Part shown: piece by piece, positions 18,365-25,241 of the stretch
Numbering within the stretch: the first letter of the stretch is position 1
Layout of the letters: each line of letters starts with the position of its first letter
NCBI GenBank assembly: GCA_036226585.1
Contig: CP108997.1
Span: 2,914,001 to 2,978,000, forward strand
DNA from: Streptomyces sp. NBC_00708
GTDB taxonomy: Bacteria; Actinomycetota; Actinomycetes; Streptomycetales; Streptomycetaceae
DNA length: 64,000 bases
Direction of reading: 5' to 3'
The notes under the pieces: model-generated
Databases searched by the model: none
Told to the model about the DNA's origin: nothing
What the model saw: the letters and a program-made list of their open reading frames with translations, nothing else
Position numbers and translations under genes: made by a program

Positions 18365-20947
18365 TCAGTCCGGCAGCAGCGGAAGCAGCTCCGGCAGGTG
18401 CCCGTCCGACGCGCCGGCCGCCGCGATCCGCTCCTCGGGGACCTCCCCGTACAGGGTGGTGCGCGGTTTCGCGGGGCGGCCGGCGAGTTCCGCGATCGCG
18501 GTCAGGTCGCGCACCGAACGGTACGAACCGTAACTCGACCCGGCCATACGGGAGATGGTCTCCTCCATCAGGGTGCCACCCAGGTCGTTGGCGCCCGAGC
18601 GCAGCATCTCGGCGGCGCCCTCCGTGCCGAGCTTGACCCAGCTGGTCTGGATGTTGGTGATGTGGGGGTGCAGGAGGAGGCGGGCCATCGCGGTGACGGC
18701 GCGGTTGTCGCGGTCGGTGGGGCCGGGGCGGGCGATGCCGGCGAGGTAGACGGGCGCGTTGGTGTGGATGAAGGGCAGCGTCACGAACTCCGTGAAGCCG
18801 CCGGTCTCCTGCTGGAGCGCGGCCAGGGTGCGCAGGTGGCCCAGCCAGTGGCGGGGCTGGTCGACATGCCCGTACATCATGGTCGAGGAGGAGCGCAGGC
18901 CCACCTCGTGGGCGGTCCTGATGACCTCCAGCCAGGTCGCGGTGGGCAGTTTGCCCTTGGTGAGGACCCAGCGGACCTCGTCGTCCAGGATCTCGGCGGC
19001 CGTGCCGGGGATCGAGTCGAGCCCGGCCTCCTTCGCGGCGGTCAGCCAGTCGCGGATCGACAGGCCGGTGCGGGTCGCGCCGTTGACGACCTCCATGGGC
19101 GAGAAGGCGTGCACATGCATGCCGGGCACCCGCTCCTTCACCGCGCGGGCGATGTCGAAGTACGCCGTGCCGGGCAGGTCCGGGTGGATGCCGCCCTGCA
19201 TGCAGACCTCGACCGCGCCGACGTCCCAGGCCTGCGCGGCCCGGTCGGCGACCTGGTCGAGGGAGAGGGTGTAGGCGTCGGCGTCGGTGCGGCGCTGGGC
19301 GAAGGCGCAGAAGCGGCAGCCGGTGTAGCAGACGTTGGTGAAGTTGATGTTGCGCGTGACGATGTACGTGACGTCGTCGCCGACCACGTCCCGGCGCAGG
19401 GTGTCCGCGATCCGGCACAGCTCGTCGAGGGCCGGGCCGTCCGCGTGCAGCAGAGTGAGCGCCTGGTCGTCGGTGAGCTTCGTCGGGTCGTCGGCGGCCT
19501 GGCCGAGCGCGGCCTTCACGTCGCCGTCGATCCGGGAGGGCACCATGCCGGGGGCCGCCGCCTCGCGCAGCGCCTCCCAGTCCCCGTACACCTCGTCGAA
19601 GTCGTCGCGGCGGTCGCCGGTGCGGCCCTCGGTGTCGATGGTGCGGTGCAGGTCGGTGCGGCCGGAGGCGTTGAACCCCTCGTCGGGCTCCTGCCAGGGC
19701 AGCCCCTCGGGAATCGCGCCCTCGCGCGCGAGGCCCGTCTCCGGGTCGGCGAGCGCCCGGACGTGCGGGAGCAGGCGCGGGTCGAGCCAGGGTTCGCCGC
19801 GCTGGATGAACTCCGGGTAGATGGTGAGGCGTTCGCGCAGCTCGAAGCCGGACTCTGCGGTGCGGGCGGCGAGTTCGTCGATGTGCGGCCAGGGGCGCTC
19901 GGGGTTGACATGGTCGGGGGTGAGCGGCGAGACCCCGCCCCAGTCGTCGATGCCGGCGCCGATGAGCAGGGCGTACTCCGCGTCGACGAGGTTCGGCGGG
20001 GCCTGGATGCGGGCGGACGGGCCGAGGATGTGCCGGGCGACGGCGATGGCGGCGGCCAGCTCCTCCAGCTCCGCGTCCGGCATCCCGCGCATCGCGGTGT
20101 CGGGCTTGGCGCGGAAGTTCTGGACGATGACCTCCTGGATGCCGTGGTAGGCGCGGGCGGTGCGGCGCAGCTCGAAGAGGGAGTCGGCGCGCTCCTCGTA
20201 GGACTCGCCGATGCCGATGAGGATGCCCGTGGTGAAGGGCACGTTGGACCGGCCGGCGTCCTCCAGGACCCGCAGCCGGACGGCGGGTTCCTTGTCCGGG
20301 GAGCCGTGGTGGGGGCCGCCGGGCTCGGACCACAGCCGGGTCGCGGTCGTCTCCAGCATCATGCCCATGGAGGGCGCGACCGGCTTGAGGCGCTGGAGGT
20401 CGGTCCAGCTCATCACCCCGGGGTTGAGGTGCGGCAGCAGCCCGGTCTCCTCCAGCACGCGGATCGCCATGGCGCGCACGTACGCGAGGGTGTCGTCGTA
20501 CCCCTCGGCCTCCAGCCACTCACGCGCCTCGGGCCAGCGGTCCTCCGGCCGGTCCCCCAGGGTGAACAGGGCCTCCTTGCAGCCCATCGCGGCGCCCTCG
20601 CGGGCGATGGCCAGCACCTCGTCCGGCGACAGGAACATGCCGTGCCCGGCCCGGCGGAGCTTGCCGGGGACGGTGACGAAGGTGCAGTAGTGGCACTTGT
20701 CACGGCAGAGCCGGGTCAGCGGGATGAAGACCTTCCGGGAGTACGTGATGACCCCGGGCCGTCCCGCCGCCTCCAGGCCCGCGTCCCGCACCCGGGCGGC
20801 GGAGGAGGCGAGATCCGTCAGGTCGTCGCCGCGTGCCTGGAGCAGCACGGCGGCCTCCGCCCGGTCGAGGGCGACACCGTCACGGGCACGCCTGAGCGCA
20901 CGCCGCATGGAGTTGGTGGTGGGGAGTCCGCGCTGAGGATCGGTCAT
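18365..20947 (-). CDS. fbiC: FO synthase, bifunctional CofG-CofH radical SAM enzyme
   Basis: Makes the deazaflavin chromophore FO of coenzyme F420 from tyrosine and 5-amino-6-ribitylaminouracil. The 860-residue protein is a fusion of two radical SAM halves. The CofG half has C81, C85 and C88 in CRDKCHYC, and the CofH half has a second cluster site CYTGCRFC around residues 540-547. In archaea the halves are separate; the fusion is typical of actinobacteria. It lies downstream of a protein kinase gene and a weak hairpin, and upstream of the 2H phosphoesterase. The ATG at 20947 gives the expected N-terminus. The F420-type oxidoreductase at 30378-31208 is a likely consumer of its product. Confidence 0.96.
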
Positions 20948-20993: not shown

Positions 20994-22361
20994 TCAGGCG
21001 TAGCACTCCAGGATCAGCGGCAGGTCCTGCGTCCATTCCCGCAGGCGGGACCGCCTGCGGGCGGTGAGCATCCAGGTGTGGACGGCGCCCGTGCGCAGGC
21101 GGACGGTGACGCCCAGGTGCTTGGGGCCCGCCACCGCGTACTCGACCCGGCCGATCTCGTCCCAGGTGAACTGCGCGTCGATTCCGGCGTCCGACTGGAA
21201 CGCGACCCCCACCGCGTCGATGACCAGCGCGCTGTCCGTGCCCAGGCCCACGAAGTCGACGTCGCCGCCACCGGCGGCCACGGCCGGCGCCTGGGGCCAC
21301 GCCCCGCCCCCCGGCCCCTGCGCGTACGGGTTCGGGGTGGCGGCGACCGGTGCGTACGGCGAAGGGCCGTACGGGGACGCCGCGTACGGGTTCGGGACCG
21401 CGGCGGCCGGCGGATACGGGGACGGGTACGGGGTGGTCGGCGCGACCGGCGGGTACGCGGGCGGCGGCGGGGTCGCGTCGGCGGGCGGCTGTGAGTGCCG
21501 CGGCGGGATCGAGTCGGCGGGCTCCGGAGGGACGGCCACGGTCGGGGCGTGCGCCGGAGCCCCGGGCACGAACAGGTCCAGCAGGGCGTCCGGGGTCGGG
21601 CGCCGGCCCGGCTCCTTCTCCAGGCAGGACGCGACGACGTCCCGCACCCCCTCCGGCACCGCTGCCAGGTCCGGCGCCTCGTGCACGGACCGATACATCA
21701 GCCCCATGGGCGTCCCGGCCCCGAACGCGCTGCCGCCCGCCGCCGCGACGAGCACCGCTCCGAGGGCGAACACATCGGCCGGGCCGCCGACTTCGAGGCC
21801 CTGCGCCTGTTCGGGGGCGAGGAACCCCGGCGTCCCGAAGGCCACACCGGTCGCGGTGAGCCGCGTCGACTCCAGGGCGCGCGCGATCCCGAAGTCCAGG
21901 ACGCGCGGCCCGTCCGACGCCATGATGATGTTGCCCGGCTTGAGGTCCCGGTGGACGAGCCCGCAGCCGTGGATGGCGGCCAGCGCCTCGGCGAGGGCGG
22001 CGCCCAGCTGCCGCAGCCGGACCTCGTCCATCGGTCCCTCGGCCTCGACGAGCGCGGCGAGCGTGGGCCCGGGTATGTACGCCGTCGCGAGCCAGGGGGC
22101 CGCCGCGTCCGGGTCCGCGTCGACGACCGGCGCCGTGTGGAACCCGCCGACGCTCCGCGCCGCCTCGACCTCGGCCCGGAACCGCGTCCGGAAGTGCGGA
22201 TCGGCGGCCAGTTCGGACCGCGCGACCTTCACGGCGACCGCGCGCCCGCCCCGCGACCGGGCCAGATAGACGACCCCCATGCCGCCGGCGCCCAACTGCC
22301 GCTCCACGGCGTATCCGCCGACCTTCTCGGGCAGGTCCGCCCCGTCCGTTCCGTACGCCAT
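20994..22361 (-). CDS. Hanks-type serine/threonine protein kinase
   Basis: A 455-residue kinase. The P loop GAGGMGVVY begins at residue 24, the ATP-binding lysine is K45 (AVAVK), the catalytic loop HRDLKPGN is at 137-144, DFG at 156-158, and [11 protein letters not shown] forms the activation segment end. After residue 270 comes a Pro/Ala/Tyr-rich linker and a compact C-terminal domain of about 90 residues (from [12 protein letters not shown] to LPLILECYA), which resembles a PH-like fold. No transmembrane helix is visible, so unlike PknB it is probably cytosolic. The ATG at 22361 follows GGGGGAGG. It is divergent from the HelR-type gene. Confidence 0.92.
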
Positions 22362-22533
22362 GTGCTCGGCGCCTCCCCCGTGATCCGGCGGCCAAGTATG
22401 CCGTGCGCCTGCCAAGTCGCGGCGACTGCGGGCGCGATCGGGCGGGAGGAGGGGGGTGCGGGGGTGCCGGGCCTGTTCACCGGCGGGCCGGGGAGGGAAC
22501 TGTCACCTCCGGCCACTCTCAACGTATAGCGCA

Positions 22534-22560
22534 AGGGGGGCCTTGCCGCAAGGCCCCCCT
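22534..22560 (+). promoter_or_regulatory. Rifamycin-associated element (RAE)-like inverted repeat
   Basis: A perfect 13-bp inverted repeat with a 1-base centre (22534-22546 with 22548-22560). Its core GGGCCTTGCCGCAAGGCCC closely matches, from memory, the RAE found upstream of rifamycin-resistance genes in actinomycetes. It lies 59 bases before the helicase start, and a weak -10-like CACAAT follows at 22568-22573. The site is also 173 bases from the divergent kinase start, but its orientation and distance favour the helicase. Confidence 0.75.
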
Positions 22561-22618
22561 CGTACCGCACAATCGCTGATCCGAGCCAGCCACCTGCGGC
22601 ATATGGGAGTTTTGCGTA

Positions 22619-24817
22619 GTGCCCGATTCGAGCCCTGTCACCCCCTCCACCACCCTCACCACGAGCGCCTTCGCGCTGACCGGCGACCGTGCCGCGGCCA
22701 AGGCCGACCCCGCCCTGATCGCCGGTGACGAGCGGCACTTCGCCGCTATCGCGCGCTGCCTGGAGGAGACCGTCGCCGAACTGACCGCCGCCCTCGACGC
22801 CGCCCGCCGCGCGCCGGGCGGGGTGGGCCGGGCGGCGATGGACCGGGACGCGGAGATCCACCGGCTGTCCGCCCGGCTGCGCACCCTGCGCCGCTTCGGC
22901 CTGGACCTGTGTCTCGGCCACATGGCCGGGGCGGACGGCTCCGAGCCGGTGTACGTGGGTCGCCTCGGTCTCACGGACAGCGAGGGCCGCCGGCTGCTGA
23001 CCGACTGGCGCTCCCCCGCCGCCGAGCCGTTCTTCGGGGCGACGCACGGTAACCCGATGGGCCTGGCGAGCCGCCGCCGCTACCGGTGGTCCGGCGGCCG
23101 GATCAGCGACTACTGGGACGAGGTGTTCACCCCGGACGCCTTCGCCGGGCACGCCGCGCTCGACGACCAGTCGGCGTTCATCGCGAGCCTGGGCACCAAC
23201 CGGTCGGCCCGGATGCGGGACGTGCTCGGCACCATCCAGGCGGACCAGGACGCGATCATCCGGGCCGGTTCGCGCGGCGCGCTGGTCGTCGACGGCGGTC
23301 CCGGCACCGGCAAGACGGTCGTCGCCCTGCACCGCGCCGCGTACCTCCTGCACGCCGATCCGCGCCTCGGGCACCGGCGCGGCGGCGTCCTGTTCGTCGG
23401 CCCGCACCAGCCGTACCTGGGATACGTGGCCGATGTGCTGCCGAGCCTCGGTGAGGACGGGGTGCGGACGTGCACCCTGCGCGACCTCGTCCCGGAGGGC
23501 GCGGCGGCCGTGCCCGAGGCCGATCCGGAGGTGGCCCGGCTGAAGGCGTCGGCGGAGCTGGTGCGGGCGGTCGAGGCGGCCGTCGCGTTCTACGAGGAGC
23601 CGCCCACCCAGGGCCTGACCGTCACGACGCCGTGGGCGGACGTCCGGCTGACCGCCGCCGAGTGGGCGGTGGCCTTCGAGTCGGCGCCGGGCGTCCCGCA
23701 CAACGAGGCGCGGGACGCGGTCCTGGAGGAGGTCCTGACGATCCTGGCCGACAAGCACGCCGACCGGCAGGAGGAGGAGGTCCCCGGCCACCTGGTCCGG
23801 CGGGCGCTGCTGCGCGACCGCGAGCTGATGGCGGCCTTCGACCGGGCCTGGCCCCTGCTGGAGGCGGCGGACCTGGTCGGCGACCTCTGGTCCGTCCCGG
23901 CCTATCTGCGTACGTGCGCGCCCTGGCTCACCCGCGAGGAGGTGACCCGGCTCCAGCGCCCGGAACCCCAGGCGTGGACGGTGTCCGACCTGCCGGTCCT
24001 GGACGCGGCCCGGCAGCGGCTCGGTGACCCGGACGCGGCCCGCCGCCGGCGCCGCAACGCGGCCACGGCCGCCGCCGAACGGGCGCGCCGGGCCGAGGCC
24101 ATCGACAGCCTCCTGGAGAACGCCGAGATCGACGAGAGCCAGGGCGCGGTCGGGATGCTGCGCGGCCGGGACCTCCAGGACACGCTGCTCGACCCGGACG
24201 CACTGTCCGCCGCCGAACCGGACGAGCTGGCGGGGCCGTTCGCCCATGTGGTGGTGGACGAGGCGCAGGAACTGACCGACGCGGAGTGGCAGATGCTGCT
24301 CCAGCGGTGCCCCTCGCGCAGCTTCACGATCGTCGGGGACCGCGCGCAGGCCCGGCACGGCTTCACGGAGTCGTGGCGGGAACGGCTGGAGCGCGTCGGC
24401 TTCGACCGGATCACCCTGTCCGCGCTGACCGTCAACTACCGCACGCCGGAGGAGATCATGGCGGCGGCGGAACCGGTGATCCGGGCCGCTCTGCCGAACG
24501 CCAACGTCCCGGTGTCCATCCGGAGCAGCGGCATCCCCGTCGCCCACGGCCCGGTCGCGGACCTGCCCGCCGTCCTCGACACCTGGCTGTCCACGCACCC
24601 CGAGGGCACGGCGTGCGTCATCGGCGCCCCGGCCGCGTTCCGCCCGGCCTCGCCCCGGGTCCGCTCGCTGACCCCGACGCTGTCGAAGGGCCTGGAGTTC
24701 GACCTGGTGGTCCTGGTCGAACCGGAGCGGTTCGGCACGGGGACCGGCGGGGCGGTCGACCGGTACGTGGCGATGACCCGGGCGACGCGGGAGCTGGTGG
24801 TGCTGTCGGGGGCGTAG
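22619..24817 (+). CDS. helR: HelD-like RNA polymerase helicase, probable HelR
   Basis: A 732-residue superfamily 1 helicase-like protein of the HelD class, which binds RNA polymerase. An N-terminal coiled coil (about residues 38-95) is followed by the split motor: Walker A GGPGTGKT near 226-233, a large insertion, Walker B VVVDEAQELTDAEWQ, GDRAQARHGF, VNYRTPEEI and the late KGLEFDLVVLVEP with VAMTRATREL. The rifamycin-associated element upstream identifies it as the HelR type, reported to displace rifamycins from RNA polymerase and give tolerance. GTG 22619 is the start, with GGGAG nine bases upstream. Regulation by rifamycin exposure is inferred from the element. Confidence 0.88.
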   Translation: MPDSSPVTPSTTLTTSAFALTGDRAAAKADPALIAGDERHFAAIARCLEETVAELTAALDAARRAPGGVGRAAMDRDAEIHRLSARLRTLRRFGLDLCLGHMAGADGSEPVYVGRLGLTDSEGRRLLTDWRSPAAEPFFGATHGNPMGLASRRRYRWSGGRISDYWDEVFTPDAFAGHAALDDQSAFIASLGTNRSARMRDVLGTIQADQDAIIRAGSRGALVVDGGPGTGKTVVALHRAAYLLHADPRLGHRRGGVLFVGPHQPYLGYVADVLPSLGEDGVRTCTLRDLVPEGAAAVPEADPEVARLKASAELVRAVEAAVAFYEEPPTQGLTVTTPWADVRLTAAEWAVAFESAPGVPHNEARDAVLEEVLTILADKHADRQEEEVPGHLVRRALLRDRELMAAFDRAWPLLEAADLVGDLWSVPAYLRTCAPWLTREEVTRLQRPEPQAWTVSDLPVLDAARQRLGDPDAARRRRRNAATAAAERARRAEAIDSLLENAEIDESQGAVGMLRGRDLQDTLLDPDALSAAEPDELAGPFAHVVVDEAQELTDAEWQMLLQRCPSRSFTIVGDRAQARHGFTESWRERLERVGFDRITLSALTVNYRTPEEIMAAAEPVIRAALPNANVPVSIRSSGIPVAHGPVADLPAVLDTWLSTHPEGTACVIGAPAAFRPASPRVRSLTPTLSKGLEFDLVVLVEPERFGTGTGGAVDRYVAMTRATRELVVLSGA

Positions 24818-24821
24818 GGCC

Positions 24822-25241
24822 TCACCCGCCCGGGGCCACCCGCGCCCACACGGTCTTGCCGACCACCCGCTCGGCGACGCCCCACTCCGCCGCCAGCGCC
24901 TCGACCAGCCGCAGCCCGTGCCCGCCCTCGGCGGCGGGCCCGCCCCCGCCCGGCTCCGGACGCCGCTCGCCGCGCGCGTCCGACACCTCGACGCGGAACC
25001 CGCCCGCCTCGGGGGCCACGCGCACCTCGAAGTCCCTCCCGGTCACGTAGCCGTGCAGCACGGCGTTCGCGGCCAGCTCGGCCACGACCACCGCCACGTC
25101 GTCGGACAGCTGACTCCCGTACGGGGCGCCCCAGGCGTCGAGTTGCTGCACGGCGAGGCGTCGGGCGAGGCGGGCCCCTCGGCGGGTGGCGCTGAAGCGC
25201 TGGACGAACTCGGTACCCACAAGGGTGATTTCGGCGTTCAT
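24822..25241 (-). CDS. Anti-sigma-like HATPase (RsbW-type)
   Basis: A 139-residue single-domain ATPase of the histidine-kinase-like fold. The N box VVVAELAANAVLHGY has E55 and N59, and the G2-like segment is GGHGLRLVEALA. Such small ATPases are very common in Streptomyces next to XRE/DUF5753 and DUF397 genes, as here: the XRE gene is divergent 133 bases away and the DUF397 gene follows it. Binding to a sigma factor or to the XRE partner is inferred from family behaviour. The stop is four bases from the convergent helicase stop, leaving no room for a terminator. Confidence 0.87.
   Translation of the reverse strand: MNAEITLVGTEFVQRFSATRRGARLARRLAVQQLDAWGAPYGSQLSDDVAVVVAELAANAVLHGYVTGRDFEVRVAPEAGGFRVEVSDARGERRPEPGGGGPAAEGGHGLRLVEALAAEWGVAERVVGKTVWARVAPGG

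Follow-up and report, generated by a model that had tools for sequence, protein, structure and literature searches.

Two conserved boxes flank the rifamycin-associated element before helR in Streptomyces sp. NBC_00708 and point to a pair of back-to-back promoters

The rifamycin-associated element (RAE) in front of helR in Streptomyces sp. NBC_00708, as read from its sequence, reaches well past the inverted repeat that the original prediction had recognized. A geometry of two -10-like boxes, one on each side of the palindrome, and its fixed orientation to resistance genes are conserved across genomes. We consider it probable that the RAE is the shared core of two back-to-back promoters in a rifamycin self-defence unit, in which helR stands under the RAE. 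A helR gene under a RAE is a known kind of locus, and the interest sits in the element. Positions refer to the 64,000-nucleotide stretch of contig CP108997.1 that was analyzed, hereafter called the window.

The element and its gene in the window

The perfect 13-bp inverted repeat described in the original prediction is real: its two arms (22534-22546 and 22548-22560, 13 nt each) are 100% complementary around a one-base centre (Table 1). No other odd-centred palindrome in the 64-kb window has arms of at least 9 nt, and first-order Markov simulations (n = 30) produced a mean of 0.97 such palindromes, with a maximum of 4, and none with arms of at least 13 nt. The assignment of the repeat as a RAE also holds, with a 19-bp palindrome found upstream of the rifamycin-resistance gene helR; the letters CTTGCnGCAAG we take to be the core of this palindrome. 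A further worry had been the central base, which is C on the sense strand of the window and G in 45 of the 47 core-selected helR loci (from the best 80 of 558 plus the window). At 111 oriented sites of other families, among the matches listed, the base was G in 80, C in 30 and T in one, so that C is a minority state compatible with a RAE.

Promoter-like parts are predicted on both strands. For the sense promoter PR and the opposing promoter PL alike, the -10 hexamer sits 19 nt past its own -35, placing the predicted starts at about 22580 and 22514, respectively. A standard promoter and terminator scan of 22300-22700 returned no promoters and no terminators. The hairpin at the predicted PL RNA start folded no better than shuffled sequences (z-score -0.55) and is therefore weak taken alone.

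Table 1 Features of the helR locus (window positions).
Feature	Position	Strand	Basis
RAE palindrome, 13-bp arms, centre 22547	22534..22560		sequence, simulations, relatives
Predicted -35 of PR, TTGCCG	22543..22548	+	position in sequence; core conserved in relatives
Predicted -10 of PR, CACAAT	22568..22573	+	A at +22 and T at +26 in relatives
Predicted -35 of PL, TTGCGG on minus strand	22546..22551	-	sequence, palindrome symmetry
Predicted -10 of PL, TACGTT (TANNNT type)	22521..22526	-	sequence and relatives; direction inferred
Hairpin at predicted PL RNA start	22486..22514	-	without T-run at the window locus
Shine-Dalgarno-like GGGAG before helR GTG	22605..22609	+	sequence
Divergent Ser/Thr protein kinase, start TTG 22415 or ATG 22361	20994..22415	-	protein-kinase models
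helR, RNA polymerase recycling motor ATPase, 732 aa	22619..24817	+	GTG start, intact ORF; NF041254

Profile search identifies the encoded protein as HelR, a class II HelD motor ATPase (NCBIfam NF041254, 1241.9 bits, cut-off 750), while other HelD/HelR models scored under their own cut-offs; its best solved relative is HelD of Mycobacterium smegmatis (E 5.7e-103). The predicted HelD-class motor motifs were confirmed, GGPGTGKT, DWRSP, VDEAQE, NYRTP and KGLEFD all being present and, among the best 80 of 558 relatives, retained in 80, 79, 80, 80 and 80 proteins, respectively. The stretch aligned with the primary-channel loop of M. smegmatis HelD, whose tip is acidic, is shorter in the window protein (ENAEIDESQGAVGML) and varies among the same best 80 of 558 relatives, the commonest forms being mostly acidic. 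By analogy, the most likely action of HelR is to bind RNA polymerase stalled by rifamycin and to dislodge the drug from it, an activity that passages of a review describe for other species. Rifamycin induction and tolerance at the window locus are likewise carried over, by analogy, from published work on other species.

Elsewhere in the 7.65-Mb genome the element recurs. Three sites, the window RAE included, match GGGNCTTGCNGCAAGNCCC with at most two mismatches. The second RAE (C1:7133869-7133887) has the full block with both boxes and precedes an 866-aa protein (L157:3710-6310, minus strand) that is a rifamycin-inactivating phosphotransferase, encoded by rph (NF041857, 1587.7 bits, cut-off 999). 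The third palindrome-like site (C1:6664240) was dropped, both boxes being missing, and a strict two-box pattern finds two sites in this genome. Because RAE-helR and RAE-rph are both present, the genome appears to carry a two-gene RAE set combining target protection with drug inactivation. With a perfect palindrome preceding a HelR above cut-off and a second RAE before rph, the locus is, by sequence, a further member of the published RAE-helR system. Further HelD-like proteins are encoded in the genome, the best of them 40% identical to the window HelR. RpoB keeps the examined 33-residue stretch of the rifampicin region, which looks to be of a rifampicin-sensitive form.

Geometry and orientation across genomes

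For helR itself, the comparison set comprised the best 80 of 558 confirmed loci plus the window (81 loci), 67 of the 80 bearing Streptomyces names. TTGC-N-GCAA was found within 450 nt of helR in 47 of the 81 loci, and a matrix search added a RAE in 30 more, giving 77 of 81 loci with a RAE within 2.5 kb upstream (76 of the 80 relatives). Two loci (L031, L077) had no RAE within 2.5 kb upstream of helR, and for two more (L030, L060) little upstream DNA was available. The 47 core-selected loci show gapless conservation past the palindrome, the left flank reading CCACTCTCAACnTATAGCGCAC and the right one gCCGCAgAAT, and all 47 have A at +22 and T at +26. Both boxes occur in 77 of 77 helR loci with a RAE (best 80 of 558 plus the window), a figure that is partly a product of selection because the matrix used for 30 of these loci includes the boxes; the 47 loci found by the core are free of that selection. 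At five non-Streptomyces helR loci (L037, L059, L069, L072 and L091), the RAE core is TTGCCACAA, an imperfect palindrome, and both boxes are kept. HelD loci matched by the mycobacterial model (L152-L156) showed no RAE core in the examined stretch and were left out. Among Arr loci identified by Pfam, 2 of the 30 fetched had a RAE.

The distance between RAE and helR varies, lying within 450 nt in 50 of the 77 loci, at 450-700 nt in four and beyond 1.3 kb in 23, with an Rgt-like or monooxygenase gene in between in the examples L025 and L065. Among 22 intervening ORFs listed, visual inspection suggests about 20 Rgt-like proteins, one Rox and one unclear case; a representative of the Rgt-like group reached 498 bits with the Rgt model (cut-off 800, hence Rgt-like only), and a rifampin monooxygenase reached 829.8 bits (cut-off 800). 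The intervening gene and helR under a distant RAE apparently form an operon of inactivation plus protection.

The geometry was also followed at sites chosen by the palindrome alone. The search string GGNCTTGCNGCAAGNCC, applied with no flank condition, occurs in 179 of 394 genomes of the class and in 60 of 137 genera. From the matches listed, 120 loci outside the genus of the window were taken, of which 118 were usable, the other two (L171, L174) being skipped as too near a contig end. The 118 sites, among the matches listed, represent 95 genomes in 39 genera and 16 families, and include related sequences, so that the site counts are not independent. A-nnn-T boxes stand at 22 and 26 nt from the centre on both sides in 113 of these 118 sites, whereas the same two-sided test at 32 other offsets succeeded no more than once each; five of the 118 lacked the double box. 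In 111 sites, again among the matches listed, exactly one side is of the TANNNT type, the other side being mostly CAnAAT. Across 32 sites, most of them in other families, the right flank reads C21 A22 g23 A24 A25 T26 outward from the centre, and the left flank, on the other strand, reads T21 A22 n n T25 T26 followed by purines and by GG at 33-34; neighbouring positions, 12 and 23 for example, are close to random. In the position-by-position comparison, 29 loci were oriented by the right box. Each -10-like hexamer begins 19 nt past a TTGCSG that lies on its own strand inside the palindrome.

The orientation relative to the resistance gene is likewise fixed. The 111 sites were oriented by the left box itself, so that the presence of this box in 111 of 111 is by construction. 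With the TANNNT side set to the left, tblastn found helR, rox, rgt, arr or rph on the opposite side in 107 of the 111 (among the matches listed), namely HelR at 54 sites, Rox at 27, Rgt and Arr at 10 each and Rph at 6. None of these five resistance proteins was detected on the TANNNT side, on either strand and within about 1.5 kb, at any of the 111 sites among the matches listed. Outside the class, 12 of 13 sites among the matches listed have both boxes, with Rox (10), Rph (1) and Arr (1) all on the expected side; the exception (L297) has neither the boxes nor one of these genes. Within Streptomyces, the two-box pattern with CTTGCNGCAAG occurs in 202 of 246 genomes and the reversed pattern in none.

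Of the remaining four oriented sites, three lead into a similar ABC transporter and one (L243) into an unclassified ORF with no known rifamycin gene within the stretch examined. In L220, the two-box RAE is directly followed by a DrrA-like ABC transporter ATPase (L220:1538-2335, plus strand; 325.7 bits, cut-off 312.45), whose mRNA may be leaderless, its ATG standing at about 37 nt from the centre of the RAE. In L222 and L224, which belong with L220 to one family (f14), a two-box RAE stands, by eye, directly before an ABC transporter ATPase. The transporter gene behind the RAE is thereby a candidate for rifamycin export.

Direction of the left box and the divergent kinase

Because A-nnn-T, the motif of the left box, reads the same on both strands, the direction of the box must come from other evidence. 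Read outward, the hexamer is TANNNT, its -35 lies at a fixed distance and G stands at the expected start (k33) in 108 of 111 sites among the matches listed. In the sense direction, the hexamer has C as its first letter in 85 of the same 111 sites or as its last letter in 105, and no conserved -35 was found upstream at the matching distance in the oriented sites. On this reading, the left box would fire outward, away from the resistance gene.

At many loci the PL RNA would open with a hairpin, whose stem sequence differs by locus, followed by T-rich DNA. The stem rule was anchored at k33-35 and allowed G-T pairs and at most one mismatch, and the counts depend on it. Stems of at least 9 pairs were found on the left in 40 of 111 sites, compared with 8.3% of dinucleotide shuffles and with 2 of 111 on the right, and stems of at least 8 pairs in 54 of 111 compared with 17% of shuffles (all among the matches listed); 71 of the 111 sites have no stem of at least 9. 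Hairpin tails hold 5.1 T per 15 positions against 2.5. For the helR loci (best 80 of 558 plus the window), stems of at least 9 occur at the PL start in 52 of 77. The folding energy has a minimum at the PL start on the left side only (-12.4 kcal/mol, against about -8 to -9 on the right). The table of stem pairs is built from stems chosen for pairing and is distinct from a covariation test. Two sites (L240, L245) have a Shine-Dalgarno-like site and a gene start within about 20 nt past k33. A leader peptide was at first considered for the AAGGAG that is conserved where PL would start, and was given up once the hairpin had been recognized.

In the window, the gene on the PL side is an ORF that matches protein-kinase models, with no curated cut-off reached. 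The original prediction had asked whether this kinase shares the rifamycin response with helR. PL does aim at it (predicted start 22514, ATG 22361) and the window hairpin has no T-run, both in keeping with a divergent regulon co-induced by rifamycin. The comparison across genomes makes such a regulon highly improbable: tblastn found the kinase on the TANNNT side of none of the 111 oriented sites among the matches listed, on either strand, and gave four weak matches (about 35% identity) in the best 80 of 558 helR loci, none adjoining the element. Co-regulation by synteny was rejected, the kinase being no conserved neighbour, and the predicted promoter aimed at it would belong to the RAE, whichever gene sits there. 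What stands of the earlier reading is a RAE before a true helR, whereas the special link to the kinase, at 0 of 111 sites among the matches listed, is not supported.

Two further neighbours were noted. Beyond the kinase lies the bifunctional FO synthase CofGH (window 18365-20947, minus strand; 1540.6 bits, cut-off 1018), for which tblastn gave no match in the best 80 of 558 helR loci. Downstream of helR, a short ORF (window 24822-25235, minus strand) matches the anti-sigma factor RsbA family weakly (28 bits, cut-off 210).

A candidate switch and its alternatives

Passages of a FEMS review (PMC10719064) describe the RAE as a 19-bp palindrome, which in mycobacteria shares sequence with the -35 of the sense promoter downstream of it, and which is needed for rifamycin induction in M. 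abscessus. Deletion of one half is said to abolish induction, and the factor acting at the RAE is stated there to be unknown. Passages of a 2026 NAR paper (PMC12802891) take a similar view and set RAE genes apart from the convergent scheme of that paper. PR is largely known, and what may be new is PL together with the hairpin, the symmetry and the fixed orientation; in the passages covered, the literature searched mentions no divergent promoter at the RAE.

In the switch that we propose, TTGC-N-GCAA would give a TTGCSG -35 on each strand, with both -10 boxes 19 nt off. PR (CACAAT in the window) would drive helR, and PL (TANNNT) would aim away; because transcription from PL would often meet a hairpin at once, the PL RNA looks for the most part like a by-product. 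The shared -35 would admit one polymerase at a time. With no drug present, it may be held by PL traffic, by a repressor on the palindrome, or by both, and a rifamycin-dependent event at the palindrome, probably via a putative regulator, would let PR fire, the factor on the palindrome shifting use from PL to PR. We infer that the boxes are promoters, that PL points outward and that the two exclude each other; the identity of the sensor is conjecture. That PL and PR merely compete for occupancy was set aside on reasoning: a polymerase with bound drug would leave PL no sooner, or even later, and would thus block PR. Occupancy alone thereby predicts repression, and a palindrome-binding factor is therefore favoured, as it is by arms conserved beyond the -35 letters. 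Against a dual promoter, the 19-nt spacers are longer than usual, and the second sense promoter upstream of the RAE in M. smegmatis does not follow from it and is not explained.

Arms conserved in this way are also what a site bound by a dimer would typically show, G17 and C18 are seen again on either side of the centre, and the effect of the half-deletion accords with the published view (PMC10719064, in the passages cited) that the RAE is a palindromic operator of a putative rifamycin-responsive regulator with one sense promoter. The left box would then be incidental or part of the regulator site, yet it varies no more than the right box does, fits TANNNT, keeps to one side relative to the gene and is followed by a start-like GG and then by a hairpin or, in a few loci, by a gene start; we regard this reading as possible but unlikely. 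Quite improbable is that both boxes are sense tandem promoters, P1 interfering with P2 as proposed for rpoBC of M. smegmatis. Two sense promoters, P1 and P2, have indeed been mapped at M. smegmatis helD, P2 overlapping the RAE, but the P1 start about 20 bp upstream of the RAE is a misfit with the left box (promoter data from PMC10719064), and the left hexamer in sense orientation has C at its first position in 85 of the 111 sites among the matches listed, or at its last position in 105, with no -35 conserved at the matching distance.

The main rival to the proposed switch holds that some product of PL elongation silences PR and disappears once the drug has brought elongation to a halt. RNA polymerase would itself be the sensor, no regulator being needed: the drug would halt PL elongation and free PR, in a divergent analogue of the Bacillus subtilis alarm. 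There, according to passages of the NAR paper (PMC12802891), a strong antisense promoter, whose spacing is 19 bp and whose RNA is short and terminated, gives rifampicin induction, also in vitro, and PL too often meets a terminator-like hairpin at once. However, the B. subtilis promoters converge and the predicted RAE promoters diverge, so that PL traffic never crosses PR, and by argument rather than data a polymerase locked on PL by the drug would occupy the shared -35 for longer. We consider this reading rather doubtful, and are as hesitant about its broadest form, that almost all RAEs are back-to-back switches in which a decoy promoter is conserved and RNA polymerase itself senses rifamycin.

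The window locus resembles RAE-helR of Streptomyces venezuelae (SVEN_6029) and M. abscessus (MAB_3189c), where a RAE lies upstream of a class II HelD/HelR; it shares their NCBI model family and has one of several HelD paralogues near a RAE, whereas its induction and resistance are predicted by analogy and the left promoter-like box goes unmentioned in the review passages. The rgt, rox, arr and rph genes under RAE control, rph in the genome of the window among them, have the same element and the same two boxes, but their enzymes modify the drug, in contrast to HelR, a target-protection protein. The alarm at B. subtilis helD (PMC12802891) shares the helD gene, a sense and an opposing promoter, the 19-nt spacing and a short terminated RNA. 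Its promoters converge without a RAE, unlike the predicted diverging promoters with a shared palindromic -35 at the RAE; the locus may act in a similar manner, but its predicted divergence sets it apart from the convergent type. Tandem promoters of M. smegmatis rpoBC likewise number two, with a balance shifted by sub-inhibitory rifampicin, but lie on the same strand without a RAE (PMC10719064).

The two-box signature offers a more specific search pattern for rifamycin-responsive genes and already leads to DrrA-like ABC transporters. If the polymerase-sensor reading were true, the promoter alarm of B. subtilis would have a counterpart in actinobacteria that differs from it in geometry. Should almost all RAEs prove to be bidirectional promoters with a common geometry, rifamycin sensing would become directly testable.
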